Shown piece by piece: positions 35,696-39,524 of a stretch of DNA of 64,000 nt (the stretch's first letter is position 1; the number at the start of each line of letters is the position of its first letter). The translations under genes were made by a program, and so were the position numbers. The stretch lies in NCBI GenBank assembly GCA_030425705.1, contig JAUHZU010000015.1, positions 1 through 64,000 of the forward strand, given 5' to 3'. Source of the stretch: Phycisphaerae bacterium. Lineage in GTDB: Bacteria > Planctomycetota > Phycisphaerae > Phycisphaerales > Phycisphaeraceae. Below the pieces are notes generated by a model. That model was not told the DNA's origin. It made no database searches and saw nothing but the letters and a program-made list of their open reading frames with translations.

Positions 35696-36621
35696 CACGA
35701 CACCTCCTTCGCGCCGAGTTGGAGCATGATGTCTTCGACGCTCATCTTGTGCTCGACAAACCGCGTCACCGCCACGCCGCTGCCGACGAGGTAGGTCAGC
35801 AGCCCGGCCAACTCGACGGGGTCGCCGTCGAACTCGACGGTGACGGTCTTCGCCTCGCGTGAGACCGACACGACCCCGGGGCGGGTAGCGAGCACCTGCT
35901 CGGCGGTGTCCGCAGCGTTGGGGCAATCAATCTCGACCAGCCGTTTGGGCTGCATCTTGGCGACGATGTCGTCGATCCGGCCGTGCTCGATCATCTCGCC
36001 CTTCTGCATCACGCCGATCGCGTCGCACATGTCTGACAACTCGGTGAGGATGTGCGAGGACACCAGCACGGTCCGGCCCTCGGCCGCGAGCCGACGGACG
36101 ATCCGACGGAACTCGATCCGCGCGATCGGGTCCACCCCGCTCGCCGGCTCGTCCAGCAGCAGCACCTTGGGCTCGTGCAGCAGCGTTTTCGCCAGGACGC
36201 AGCGTTGGGTCATCCCGCGCGAGAGCGTGCCGCCCTTGACGTCGCGCTTCGACTGCAGGTCGACCATGTCGAGGACTTCATCGACCCGCCGCCTGCGGTC
36301 GCGCCGGTGGATGAAGTAGGCCGAGGCGAACAGGTCCAGGAACTCCCAGACCTTCAGGTCGTCGTAGACCGGGGCGAGGTCGGGCATGAAGCCCAGCAGG
36401 CGGTGGACCTGATCGGGCGCTTCGGCGACGTCGTAGCCGCCGACGTAGACCTCGCCGTAGGTCGGCTCCTGCAGCGTGGCGAGGACGCGGATGGTGCTGG
36501 TCTTGCCCGCGCCGTTGGGCCCGATGAGCCCGAAGACCTGCCCGGCGGGGATGTGGAGCGTGAGCCCTTCCACAGCGGTGAAGCCGTCGTAGTCCACACG
36601 CATGTCGTTGAGTTGAATCAT
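35695..36621 (-). CDS. ABC transporter ATP-binding protein
   Basis: ATPase of 308 aa of the CcmA/NatA exporter type. Walker A is GPNGAGKTST (residues ~38-47), the signature is TLSRGMTQRCVLAKTLLHEP, Walker B is VLLLDEPASGVDP, and the switch His is in LVSSHILTELS. A ~90-residue C-terminal accessory domain follows (KRLVEIDCPNAADTAEQVLATRPGVV). It energises the adjacent permease. The ATG at 36621 begins at the conserved IQLNDMRVDYDG; a GTG at 36645 is possible but lies only 3 nt after a TATGAT box. Confidence 0.93.
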   Translation of the reverse strand: MIQLNDMRVDYDGFTAVEGLTLHIPAGQVFGLIGPNGAGKTSTIRVLATLQEPTYGEVYVGGYDVAEAPDQVHRLLGFMPDLAPVYDDLKVWEFLDLFASAYFIHRRDRRRRVDEVLDMVDLQSKRDVKGGTLSRGMTQRCVLAKTLLHEPKVLLLDEPASGVDPIARIEFRRIVRRLAAEGRTVLVSSHILTELSDMCDAIGVMQKGEMIEHGRIDDIVAKMQPKRLVEIDCPNAADTAEQVLATRPGVVSVSREAKTVTVEFDGDPVELAGLLTYLVGSGVAVTRFVEHKMSVEDIMLQLGAKEVS

Positions 36622-36648
36622 GAGCCGCACGCCGTCCGGGTTCACCAG

Positions 36649-36654
36649 ATCATA
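36649..36654 (-). promoter_or_regulatory. -10 element TATGAT upstream of the ABC transporter operon
   Basis: On the minus strand TATGAT lies 27 nt before the chosen ATG (36621). A transcription start at the usual distance falls near 36642 and leaves a ~20-nt leader. No clear -35 is visible. Confidence 0.4.
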
Positions 36655-36730
36655 CGCGTGGGGGCGGGCTTGGGTTGGCGGCGGGAATGTTTAGGGATTC
36701 ACCAGGGGAGTGATGTCCATCTGCCACAGG

Positions 36731-37777
36731 TCAGAGCACGTCCACCAGCGGCAGGCATGTCCGGTCCACGGCCTCGGCGACGCGTGACAGCGAGCGCATC
36801 AGGTCGGCCAGGACCTCGGGCGTGATCGACTGTGCGCCGTCGGTCAGCGCGTGCTTGGGGTCCGGGTGGCACTCGATGGCTAGCCCGTCGCAGCCGGCGG
36901 CGATGGCCGCGCGGGCCATGTCCGGCACGAGGTAGGCGTGGCCCGTCCCGTGGCTGGGGTCGATGACGATCGGAAGGTGGCTGCGACGATTCAGTTCGGG
37001 CACGGCCGAGAGCGACAGCGTGTTCCGCGAGTGGTTCTCGAACGTGCGGATCCCGCGCTCGCAGAGCACAACATCGGCGTTGCCCGCGGCGAGGATGTAG
37101 TCTGCGGCCTGCAGGTATTCGTCGAGGTTCATCGACATCCCACGCTTGTAGAGGATGGGTTTCCCGGCCTTGCCGCAGGCCTCGAGCAGCTTGAAATTCT
37201 GCGCGTTGCGGGTGCCAATCTGCAGCATGTCGGCGTATCTGGCGACGAGGTCGACGTCGCCGGGCGTGATGACCTCGGTGACGATGGGAAGCCCGGTGGC
37301 ATCGCGTGCGGCGGCGAGCATCTTCAGGCCGTCTTCGCCGTGTCCCTGGAAGGCGTAGGGGTTGGTGCGCGGCTTGAACGCCCCGCCGCGCAGGGCGTGG
37401 GCCCCGGCGTCCTTGACGAGCTGCGCGGCGTGGAGGATCTCCTGTTCGCCTTCGACGCTGCACGGCCCGCTGATGACCGGCACCTGCGTCCCGCCGAAGA
37501 CGCAGCCGTCCCCCTGGCCGACGCGGACCCGCGTGCGTTCCCCGCCGGTGGCTTCTCGCGCGGCCATTTTGTACGGCGACATCACGCGCATCACGCGGTC
37601 GACGCCCGGGGCCTGTTCGAGCTTCGAGCCGTCCTTGAGCCGGTCGTCGCCGATCACAGCCACGACGACCAGGTCGCTGCCCTGGATCGGCTGTGGGGTG
37701 AGGCCCATCTCGGTGATGAGGTCGGAGACCCCCTGGACCTGGTCGGCGGTAGCGCCGGCTTGCATCACGATAATCAT
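36731..37777 (-). CDS. aroF: 3-deoxy-7-phosphoheptulonate (DAHP) synthase, type I-beta with N-terminal regulatory domain
   Basis: Enzyme of 348 aa catalysing the first step of the shikimate pathway (PEP + erythrose 4-phosphate to DAHP). Residues 1-70 form a ferredoxin-like domain (MIIVMQAGATADQVQGVSDLI), as in Thermotoga-type enzymes where it mediates Tyr/Phe feedback. The barrel contains ISGPCSVEGEQEI, LRGGAFKPRTNPYAFQG, ILYKRGM, VIDPSHGTGH and ECHPDPKHALTDGAQS, diagnostic for type I-beta. AGGA lies 7-8 nt before the ATG. The gene is preceded by a promoter, an aromatic leader peptide and an intrinsic terminator, described separately, that together form an attenuator. No other aromatic pathway genes are adjacent. 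Confidence 0.96.
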   Translation of the reverse strand: MIIVMQAGATADQVQGVSDLITEMGLTPQPIQGSDLVVVAVIGDDRLKDGSKLEQAPGVDRVMRVMSPYKMAAREATGGERTRVRVGQGDGCVFGGTQVPVISGPCSVEGEQEILHAAQLVKDAGAHALRGGAFKPRTNPYAFQGHGEDGLKMLAAARDATGLPIVTEVITPGDVDLVARYADMLQIGTRNAQNFKLLEACGKAGKPILYKRGMSMNLDEYLQAADYILAAGNADVVLCERGIRTFENHSRNTLSLSAVPELNRRSHLPIVIDPSHGTGHAYLVPDMARAAIAAGCDGLAIECHPDPKHALTDGAQSITPEVLADLMRSLSRVAEAVDRTCLPLVDVL

Positions 37778-37834
37778 GGCGGTGTCCTGGCTGCGCGATG
37801 CGCGTGGTGTGTCGTGGTGTCGGGTGGCAGAAAC

Positions 37835-37866
37835 AAAAAAGCCCCGGCGCGGGTGCGTCAGGGCTT
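37835..37866 (-). terminator. Attenuator terminator in the aroF leader
   Basis: On the minus strand, AAGCCCTGACGC (37866-37855) pairs with GCGCCGGGGCTT (37850-37839): a 12-bp stem with one A-C mismatch and one G-U pair and a 4-nt loop (ACCC), followed by TTTTTTG. It lies 26 nt after the leader peptide stop and ~57 bp before the aroF ATG. Placed between promoter and gene, it must be read through for aroF expression. The left arm segment CCCTGAC (37863-37857) is perfectly complementary to GTCAGGG (37907-37901) inside the leader ORF, giving a competing antiterminator. Confidence 0.9.
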
Positions 37867-37891
37867 GCGGTGGGCTGGCGTGTCGCCGCGG

Positions 37892-37963
37892 CTAGGCGTT
37901 CCCTGACTCGGCTCGGGGCCGGGTAAACCAGAACTCAAAGAAATAGCCGAAGGCGGGTGTCAT
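37892..37963 (-). CDS. Aromatic leader peptide of the aroF attenuator
   Basis: ORF of 23 codons, ATG at 37963 and TAG at 37894-37892. Residues 5-13 read FGYFFEFWF: five Phe, one Tyr and one Trp in nine positions, covering all three products of the aromatic pathway. A TTGACA/CATACT promoter ends 7 nt before the ATG, so the transcript would start at or one base before the start codon and the peptide would be translated without a ribosome-binding site. Codons 19-21 contain GTCAGGG, which can pair with the terminator's left arm. A ribosome stalled on the aromatic codons leaves it free (antitermination), while one that reaches the stop covers it (termination). This is the textbook pheA/trp logic, here in front of DAHP synthase. 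Confidence 0.88.
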   Translation of the reverse strand: MTPAFGYFFEFWFTRPRAESGNA

Positions 37964-37970
37964 GCGGGTA

Positions 37971-37998
37971 AGTATGGCCGCGCCCGTTGGGTTGTCAA
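37971..37998 (-). promoter_or_regulatory. aroF: Sigma-70-type promoter of the aroF leader
   Basis: On the minus strand, TTGACA (37998-37993, perfect -35) is followed by a 16-bp spacer and CATACT (37976-37971). Transcription should start near 37964, immediately before the leader peptide ATG at 37963. The promoter sits in the gap between aroF and the C39-like protease gene, whose 3' end is at 38019. Confidence 0.82.
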
Positions 37999-38018
37999 CC
38001 CCGGGAGGGCAATGGCGG

Positions 38019-38909
38019 CTAGAACCCGTTGGGCTGGGGAAGGCGGGACATCCAGTAGGTGCTCGGCCGCTGCGGGTCCAAGCGGCGGGTGTCCTGGCTG
38101 GTTCGCTCAAAGGAGATCACCTGCCCGCGGTAGGCGGCCTCAAAGTCCGAGCGTTTGACGAACTCGATGCCCACGGCGGGGTCCGCCACCAGCACACCGT
38201 CGGGCCGGACCCGGAGGATCGTGATCATGTGCAGGCGGGTGGGCTCGTACTGCACGGGGGTGAGCGCCGGGACGGGGAGGCTGCGTAGGTCCTCGTAGGT
38301 CGGCTCGATGAGCTGCGGGCGGAGGCCCTCGCCTTCCAGCCGGCGGGTGAGCCCGTGCATCGCGCGGAGCAGGGTCGCCCCGCTGCCGGGCCGCGTCTCG
38401 GTCAGCCGGGCCATCTCGGCCTCATCGGTCTCGACGCCGAGGACCCGCAGGGCCGTCGCACACGCCGCAGGGACGCACGAGTAGTCCTGGCTCTGGAGGA
38501 CCTCCATGGGGTAATCAGATCGGCCGGTCGCAAACGCGGTGGCCGGGGTCTGCTTGAGCATCCAAGACCCGCCCTGCACGAAGTAGCCGCCGCCCAGGAG
38601 CACGGCCACCACAACAAACGCACGCTGTCGGCGGAGTTCCCCCAGCGACCATGCGATGCCGACGACAAAGGCAAACACGGGTGCCGCGCCGATCCCTTCG
38701 AGCCGCGCCAGGGCCGACAGCGGCACAAGCTGCACCGCGACGGACGGGTGCCGTATGAGCCAGCACCAGCCGACGAGCAGGAACATCGCGGCGCCGATAA
38801 AGACGCCCCGCCGGGTGTGGTCGCTGACCCGCCCGATCCGGCAGCCGGCCCACCACATCAGCGGCAGCAGCAGCACGATCCCGATAAACCACAGCAGCGG
38901 TCCCGACAT
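38019..38909 (-). CDS. Membrane-anchored C39-like cysteine peptidase
   Basis: Protein of 296 aa. Four hydrophobic segments occupy residues ~5-120 (LLWFIGIVLLLPLMWWAGC, RGVFIGAAMFLLVGWCWLI, GIGAAPVFAFVVGIAWSL, AFVVVAVLLGGGYFVQGG). The C-terminal half resembles a C39 papain-like peptidase: oxyanion Gln and Cys in SQDYSCVPAACATALR, His in RLHMITIL, and Asp in LVADPAVGIEF. In C39 proteins this domain removes double-glycine leader peptides or processes exported substrates. No ABC exporter is fused or adjacent, so the substrate is unknown. GGAGGAGAGG precedes the ATG. Confidence 0.78.
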   Translation of the reverse strand: MSGPLLWFIGIVLLLPLMWWAGCRIGRVSDHTRRGVFIGAAMFLLVGWCWLIRHPSVAVQLVPLSALARLEGIGAAPVFAFVVGIAWSLGELRRQRAFVVVAVLLGGGYFVQGGSWMLKQTPATAFATGRSDYPMEVLQSQDYSCVPAACATALRVLGVETDEAEMARLTETRPGSGATLLRAMHGLTRRLEGEGLRPQLIEPTYEDLRSLPVPALTPVQYEPTRLHMITILRVRPDGVLVADPAVGIEFVKRSDFEAAYRGQVISFERTSQDTRRLDPQRPSTYWMSRLPQPNGF

Positions 38910-39122
38910 GCCTCTCCTCCAGGCCGCGGGAAACGCGGCCGACCCGGGCGGCGCGAATGCGACGCGGGCCGGTCAGCTTCGGCGGTTTCTCTCAATGGCT
39001 GAGGGGCAGGCATTACCGGCCGGACCAGTAATCCCGCGCAGAGGTGGGGTGTAACGGCTGTCGCGGTCGGGCTGCGGGTTGACCGGCCGGACACACGGCA
39101 CAACCCACCCAGGGCAGACAAG

Positions 39123-39524
39123 CTACGGCAAGAGCCCCGGGGGGACGGGCACGGCCTTGCCCCGGGTATCGGTGCAGACCAGCGTGGTCTCCGCCGTCGC
39201 GAGCAGGTCGCTGCCCCGGCGGATCTCGTAGCGGTGCTCCACCTTGACCCCCGCGCACGGCAGGCCGGTGACGTGGACCTCGATCTCGTCGTCGTACATG
39301 GCCGGCTTCTTGTATTTCAGCGACATCCGCGCGACCACGAAGAAGACACCCTGCTCCTCGCAGGCCCGGTACGGCGCCCCCTGTTCGCGCAGCAGCTCGG
39401 TCCGGGCGATCTCCATCCACACCGGGTAGGACGCGTGGTGCGCGATCCGCATCGGGTCGCACTCGCAGTAACGCACGCGGATCGGGACGACGGTCTGGCG
39501 CTCGCGGGGGTCGGGGTCGGGCAT
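39123..39524 (-). CDS. Acyl-CoA thioesterase, YbgC/4-hydroxybenzoyl-CoA thioesterase family
   Basis: Hot-dog fold protein of 133 aa. The N-terminal helix-strand motif RVRYCECDPMRIAHHASYPVWMEIAR matches the family pattern in which an Asp and neighbouring His residues near Tyr/Trp form the active site. The core strands (FFVVARMSLKYKKPAMYDDEIEV, KVEHRYEIRR, LLATAETTLVCTD) are complete. Relatives hydrolyse short- or medium-chain acyl-CoA or associate with the Tol-Pal envelope system; no tol genes are adjacent, so the substrate is unknown. A -10-like TAAACT lies ~36 nt upstream of the start. Confidence 0.9.
   Translation of the reverse strand: MPDPDPRERQTVVPIRVRYCECDPMRIAHHASYPVWMEIARTELLREQGAPYRACEEQGVFFVVARMSLKYKKPAMYDDEIEVHVTGLPCAGVKVEHRYEIRRGSDLLATAETTLVCTDTRGKAVPVPPGLLP

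Follow-up and report, generated by a model that had tools for sequence, protein, structure and literature searches.

The locus described here raises the question of how translation of a short leader peptide is started when its start codon lies where transcription itself is expected to begin. It was found in a 64,000-nucleotide stretch of contig JAUHZU010000015.1 from a Phycisphaerae bacterium (referred to below as the window), ahead of a gene encoding 3-deoxy-7-phosphoheptulonate (DAHP) synthase, which catalyses the first step of aromatic amino acid synthesis. The attenuator leaders of enteric bacteria carry a 5' UTR with a Shine-Dalgarno (SD) site. The window element (Table 1) had been predicted to be an attenuator leader peptide translated from a leaderless transcript. 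Judging from sequence comparison, we consider, with a probability of roughly 0.86, that DAHP synthase is here controlled by a ribosome-mediated attenuator, the leader peptide of which would be translated from a leaderless or near-leaderless transcript, with a 5' UTR of about 0-5 nt.

Table 1. Coordinates of the elements of the DAHP synthase leader region and of the leuA leader of the same genome.
Feature	Position	Strand	Basis
-35 element TTGACA	37993-37998	minus	consensus scan
-10 element CATACT, 16-bp spacer to -35	37971-37976	minus	consensus scan and relatives
Predicted transcription start, at or beside leader ATG (37963-37961)	37962-37966	minus	inferred from 7-nt distance to -10
Leader ORF, MTPAFGYFFEFWFTRPRAESGNA plus stop	37892-37963	minus	ORF reading, relatives
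Control codons 5-13 (F G Y F F E F W F), 7/9 aromatic	37925-37951	minus	sequence; block at same place in relatives
Region 2 (end of leader ORF; GUCAGGG core 37907-37901), pairs with terminator 5' arm	37901-37911	minus	compensatory changes in antiterminator helix
CCCUGAC, part of terminator 5' arm pairing with region 2	37857-37863	minus	fold, comparison
Intrinsic terminator: hairpin 37866-37839, U6 tract 37840-37835	37835-37866	minus	fold; 93.5% of cells paired, 43 distinct sequences
AGGA, Shine-Dalgarno-like, of DAHP synthase gene	37785-37788	minus	sequence, relatives
DAHP synthase, 348 aa	36731-37777	minus	NF006421, TIGR01361
Leu-rich leader, -10 box 6 nt before ATG, upstream of leuA	C14:498236-498464 (L135, L160), window genome

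A consensus scan of both strands between positions 37000 and 39000 returned a single sigma-70-like site, the TTGACA-16-CATACT promoter, which matches the consensus at 10 of 12 positions and for which 0.1 sites are expected in shuffled sequence. The last base of CATACT lies 7 nt from the ATG at 37963 on the minus strand, a spacing that places the predicted canonical start at the A of the leader ATG or 1-2 nt off it, as had been proposed. No SD-like 4-mer occurs in the 20 bases 5' of this ATG, in agreement with the original prediction that the leader has no ribosome-binding sequence, and the positions it gave for TTGACA, CATACT and the ATG were all correct when the sequence was re-read. From this promoter geometry, leaderless or near-leaderless initiation of the leader appears well supported.

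Matches to sigma-70 promoters occur often, as do short ORFs, and a promoter-like match might lie by chance beside a functionless short ORF. Relatives of the window element were looked for with a finder whose rule was a short ORF, carrying four or more aromatic residues, that starts no further than 40 nt beyond a sigma-70-like promoter. Among 55 DAHP synthase-like matches at E <=1e-80 in the order, 50 loci were taken, leaving out three incomplete rows (G154, G038, G139) and two with 45-52% identity (G123, G028). An aromatic leader with promoter was found in 44 of the 50 loci; these 44 span 29 genera and two families, and their closely related members do not count as independent cases. When the 44 upstream regions were shuffled by mononucleotide, there were 12/880 matches at a distance of <=12 nt and 30/880 at any distance up to 40 nt; reverse strands gave 0/50. 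Five loci (L005, L025, L029, L037, L038) lacked the leader by this finder, as a chance arrangement would allow, and the contig of L030 ends too early for the search. Set against the shuffled and reversed controls, the single promoter found where 0.1 were expected and the covariation in both helices described below, chance is left with a negligible probability.

In L005, which comes from the genus of the window (G088), DAHP synthase comes after the preceding gene and no T tract was seen by eye; this locus is an apparent case of natural leader loss.

The -10 box of the 44 leaders stands 6 nt (13 leaders), 7 nt (7), 8 nt (3), 9 nt (14), 10 nt (4), 11 nt (1), 20 nt (1) or 21 nt (1) from the start codon, that is, at 6-11 nt in 42 of them, from 27 genera. 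Conservation of this distance in related genomes had been proposed as a check on the original prediction; it is borne out here and recurs at the Leu and Ile leaders described below. Within the 42 short-spaced loci TTGAC is invariant at 2.0 bits per position (the finder itself having demanded at least 4/6 matches), and the -10 box is mostly near-invariant; the stretch after it shows little beyond a preferred T. The 30 positions 5' of the -35 box hold only 0.0-0.4 bits in the same loci, which speaks against a rival reading in which transcription starts further upstream, at another promoter or by read-through from the C39-like gene, and the leader is translated by SD-independent initiation, for example through ribosomal protein S1. 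Such a start would have a nearby source, since the upstream C39-like ORF runs to 38019, some 20 nt ahead of the -35 box, and some features of the set fit a 5' UTR of some length. The 9-nt distance of 14 of the 44 leaders would give 2-3 nt, not zero, and the two misfits, L031 (21 nt, with GGAG 5' of the start) and L042 (20 nt, with a weak promoter score), would carry about 13-15 nt. SD-like 4-mers, however, are found 5-20 nt 5' of the start in only 4/44 leaders, no more than the background of random upstream windows (218/2200, 9.9%), as against 43/44 DAHP synthase genes, and L031 is the only leader with such a 4-mer inside its predicted transcript. The same RNAs thus carry an SD site for DAHP synthase and none for the leader.

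Leaders of the Phycisphaerales have 18-28 residues (23 in the window), and F, Y and W are all present in 35/44. In the leader frame of the 44 sequences, 308 of 1031 codons specify aromatic residues versus 93 and 127 of 987 in the other two frames, and stops number 0 versus 38 and 23, a comparison that describes the frame and does not test it since the frame was picked by its aromatic content. The leaders favour synonymous Phe and Tyr codons that are avoided by the DAHP synthase gene. Over 26 loci among L003-L032, the Phe ratio TTT:TTC is 82:38 in leaders versus 18:114 in the genes (odds ratio 13.7) and the Tyr ratio TAT:TAC is 27:10 versus 19:132 (odds ratio 18.8). This bias may reflect slow decoding, or a 5' end that is kept open.

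The product of the downstream gene scored 433.9 bits with NF006421 (cut-off 335) and 340.4 bits with TIGR01361 (cut-off 267.75). Between the leader ORF and this gene lies a terminator hairpin with 8 + 3 pairs and a tail of six U, which a simple terminator scan missed, probably because the stem is interrupted. The locus therefore has two marks of an attenuator, an aromatic-codon ORF before a biosynthetic gene and an intrinsic terminator between the two. An Rfam search of positions 36500-39200 assigned the leader to no family; of two weak matches, the better one reached 19.7 bits (gathering threshold 34.1) at 36720-36755, outside the leader.

Folding of the window leader RNA as a whole is unexceptional against shuffles (z -0.72), and we therefore relied on comparison. 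The 44 leaders were aligned with MAFFT, and columns 76-85 (leader end) were set against columns 160-169 (terminator 5' arm). This antiterminator helix is paired in 84.4% of cells with two-sided changes in 8/10 pairs, and the terminator helix in 93.5% with two-sided changes in 7/9 pairs, covariation counts that are inflated by relatedness among the sequences. None of 500 shuffles was as high for either helix, and versions slid along the alignment reached at most 42.6% and 47.8%, respectively. RNAalifold predicted only the terminator from the full alignment; the antiterminator was tested as a named helix. The duplex between leader tail and terminator arm beats 95% of shuffled tails in 35/44 leaders, and the window's own tail misses the 5% level (p 0.095). 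The last aromatic codon of the block is separated from region 2 by 16 nt in 31/44 leaders, and the end of region 2 from the stop codon by 8 nt in 29/44. The original claim of an attenuator leader is thus upheld by an aromatic leader, a terminator and an antiterminator with compensatory changes across 44 relatives, and the position of the promoter, the leader ORF, both helices and their spacing can be read from the aligned sequences.

Regulation might also be exerted by the peptide or through Rho with no antiterminator, as translation arrest or simple translational coupling, and the unexceptional single-sequence folding would fit this, as would a conserved FWFTRP-like stretch that reaches past the control codons in the leader alignment. 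We find it very improbable in view of the compensatory changes in the antiterminator helix, of the recurrent spacing from stall site to region 2 to stop codon, and of leaders whose amino acids (Leu, Ile) change to suit the matching pathways.

The effect of ribosome position was modelled by folding with nucleotides masked to 12 nt past the A site, the highest pair probability being recorded for each helix. With the ribosome at the stop codon, the terminator exceeded 0.9 in 41/44 leaders (exceptions: L004 (0.80), and L007 and L050 (0.00)). Before the terminator 3' arm is made, the antiterminator exceeded 0.5 in 41/44 (exceptions: L022, L031, L050). When the full RNA was folded at equilibrium in the stalled state, the antiterminator was the clear winner in 12/44 only, and in the window the terminator reached 0.71 against 0.30 for the antiterminator. 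As the terminator wins at equilibrium in the stalled state, the switch must be kinetic. Comparison and folding together point to mutually exclusive helices whose choice would depend on the position of the ribosome, and in most sequences the antiterminator would need to win kinetically. Over their first 40 nt, the leaders fold a little less stably (-3.8 kcal/mol) than shuffles (-4.6) or the 5' ends of the DAHP synthase genes (-4.7).

We infer from this arrangement the exact 5' end, translation of the leader, start-codon-first loading and the amino acid response, as follows. RNA polymerase would start at, or a few bases from, the leader AUG, and a ribosome would load on this 5'-terminal AUG without an SD site, in the 70S mode or another start-codon-first mode. 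A shortage of charged tRNA-Phe, -Tyr or -Trp would make the ribosome stall in codons 5-13 and leave free region 2, beginning 16 nt past the last aromatic codon, which would pair with the terminator 5' arm and allow read-through into the gene. With charged tRNAs available, the ribosome would reach the stop codon, which lies 8 nt beyond region 2, and cover this region, so that the terminator would form. DAHP synthase itself would be translated from its own SD site. Like enteric attenuators, the window element combines a control-codon leader peptide, alternative helices and an intrinsic terminator; unlike in those, region 2 lies inside the leader ORF, and a ribosome at the stop codon would mask it directly.

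The same layout was found at other biosynthetic genes. The leuA gene of the window genome (TIGR00973, 708.7 bits) is preceded by TTGACA-17-TATTCT, 6 nt, an ATG, the leader peptide MQRDLLLTGDLGIGLLGLLLIPSAG and an inverted repeat rich in G+C, followed by a short T-rich stretch. All 30 leuA loci returned from 51 genomes were examined, and 28 of these loci of the family have a Leu leader, 27 of them at 6-11 nt; the remaining one was scored at 1 nt since an ATG further 5' in the same frame had been chosen, the next ATG standing at 7. The two loci with no leader have only 49 nt of upstream sequence (L166) or none (L177). Shuffles gave 1/600 at a distance of <=12 nt and reverse strands 0/30. For citramalate synthase (TIGR00977, 600.2 bits in the window genome), a leader was recognized by eye on C7 upstream of 210842 (L161), with TTGGCG-17-TATCCT, 6 nt, an ATG, MLQANAQIAAILAMTPPR and a terminator-like repeat; it has two Ile codons only and failed the Ile cut-off. 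Among 20 chosen citramalate synthase loci (L223-L242), the same promoter rule detected an Ile-rich leader in 7, six at 6-9 nt and one at 23 nt. When the -35 box was no longer required, 12/20 had one at 6-9 nt, L224 being a weak case among them; under this looser rule L233 had no promoter and six loci had no such ORF. Shuffles under the promoter rule gave 0/400 at <=12 nt. With DAHP synthase, leuA and citramalate synthase, leaders of short spacing thus precede the genes of three pathway-entry enzymes in the family. The recurrence of the short distance at three gene families also argues against a transcription start further upstream of the window leader, which we regard as unlikely, and in favour of a leader that would begin at or near the RNA 5' end.

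The idea that every promoter of the genome is leaderless was dropped, as only 3 (L142, L152, L153) of 17 strict TTGAC..ATAMT promoters have an ORF start no more than 11 nt away; the other 14 stand further from an ORF start or have none shown, and the reversed pattern gave a single match. The strict pattern with an ATG 5-9 nt after the -10 box yielded 15 matches versus 4 for the reversed pattern, 8 of the 15 opening an ORF of at least 60 aa, and with an ATG at 20-24 nt it yielded 8 versus 0. Ordinary genes with the short-spaced layout therefore probably exist, and an enrichment of this layout for attenuators over other genes is not established. Upstream of trpE on C21 of the window genome (L157), a small ORF, MRNPTPPTRWACWRWPIG, contains three Trp codons, with no evident terminator or close promoter.

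The attenuators analysed by Neshat et al. in 2014 are reportedly leaderless. For C. glutamicum, where work by Morbach et al. is also cited, the aroF leader (aroR), with Phe-Tyr-Phe before a DAHP synthase gene, is described as a ribosome-mediated attenuator responding to Phe (PMC4046766, PMC11802643). An aromatic attenuator leader ahead of DAHP synthase was thus already known; the two leaders belong to different phyla, and their likeness is one of description, with no claim of common descent. In Sinorhizobium meliloti, the 5' end of the trpL attenuator RNA (rnTrpL) is reported to coincide with the ATG of the leader ORF (PMC7298713). This leaderless attenuator leader resembles the predicted layout of the window; it is described there as a Trp leader before trpE(G), in another phylum, whose peptide and RNA also act in trans. 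The Streptomyces lividans leaders LeuL1, LeuL2, TrpL1, TrpL2, IlvL, MetL and ThrL are called leaderless from RNA-seq in PMC8079986. LeuL1 precedes leuA, as in Phycisphaeraceae, and is reported to have no typical terminator, whereas the terminator of the planctomycete DAHP synthase leader is strong. The ilvB leader of C. diphtheriae is likewise given as leaderless in PMC5784534. Mycobacterial polycysteine ORFs (Canestrari et al. 2020, via PMC9031893; title in PMC13236596) are described as leaderless short ORFs whose control codons make them attenuators, like the window leader; they differ in using cysteine and, by the account of PMC1262725, in having no conserved terminator hairpin.

The original prediction held a leaderless attenuator leader to be an unusual contrast with classical ones, and this part is not supported, since such leaders are documented in Alphaproteobacteria and Actinobacteria (PMC7298713, PMC8079986, PMC5784534, PMC9031893). 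Its further suggestion, that 70S or start-codon-first initiation would couple translation to the polymerase with another timing than in enteric systems, is a reasonable one. Enteric attenuators named in PMC11802643 are trpL, pheL-pheA and pheST. For Planctomycetota, a comparison of 260 prokaryotes that included one planctomycete suggests leaderless or S1-dependent initiation in the phylum (PMC5397173), and a paper on leader genes refers to Planctomycetes, with no use of 'leaderless' in its main text (PMC4833913). The open-licence literature searched (leaderless transcripts, leader peptides, attenuation) held no description of such leader elements in Planctomycetota. Most likely, the planctomycete layout, which recurs in three pathways, is of the same kind as the published leaderless attenuators of other phyla.

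Beyond the order, 56 further DAHP synthase loci (L069-L124) were considered, three of them with no usable upstream sequence. At seven planctomycete loci there is an aromatic leader whose ATG stands 6 nt (L070, L072, L074, L076, L093, L095) or 8 nt (L069) past a -10-like box, with a poor -35 match in several; L081 and L085 have an aromatic ORF and no clear near -10 box, and the leader was not found at most other planctomycete loci of this set. Aromatic-rich leader ORFs before DAHP synthase also occur in Peribacteria/Peregrinibacteria (L103, L104, L113, L120), where the best promoter lies 22-24 nt off, and in NC10-type bacteria (L084, L086), where a near -10 box was not found. These six leaders may be leadered counterparts of the window element. 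Similar leaders with longer spacing outside the order thus suggest that leaderlessness is a lineage trait, which the device can do without.

A wider reading, which we hold only tentatively and judge rather less probable than its opposite, is that in Phycisphaeraceae, and perhaps in Planctomycetota at large, leaderless initiation may be a selected and integral part of attenuator design, the leaders of at least three pathway-entry genes beginning at the RNA 5' end and the structural gene (compared for DAHP synthase only) keeping its SD site. Two initiation modes would then operate on one transcript, and the ribosome would load once the first codons leave the polymerase. 

The loci form a clean set of predicted attenuators, spread widely over the phylogeny, in a phylum where the literature searched describes none, with an internal contrast between SD at the gene and none at the leader. 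This contrast makes it testable whether leaderless initiation alters the tightness of coupling between ribosome and RNA polymerase, for which the longer-spaced leaders of L031, L042 and Peribacteria and the apparent leader loss in L005 offer natural comparisons. If the 5' ends were confirmed, leaderless attenuators would extend to at least three phyla.

A covariance model of the leader, run against 294 genomes of the phylum, gave 64 matches at E <=0.01. Many of the weaker matches correspond to the terminator part alone, and some span the full model. The stronger matches outside the order include L200 to L203. At L200 a terminator accompanies a stretch that codes for aromatic residues, to which no start codon was assigned. 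In another family of the phylum, L201 and L202 have an aromatic leader and terminator ahead of the other DAHP synthase type (TIGR00034, 459.9 and 452.8 bits); by eye, these leaders have GTG starts, a spacing of about 17 nt and a GAGGG motif shortly upstream. L203 precedes leuA (TIGR00973, 680.6 bits), and a Leu-rich frame was recognized there by eye.
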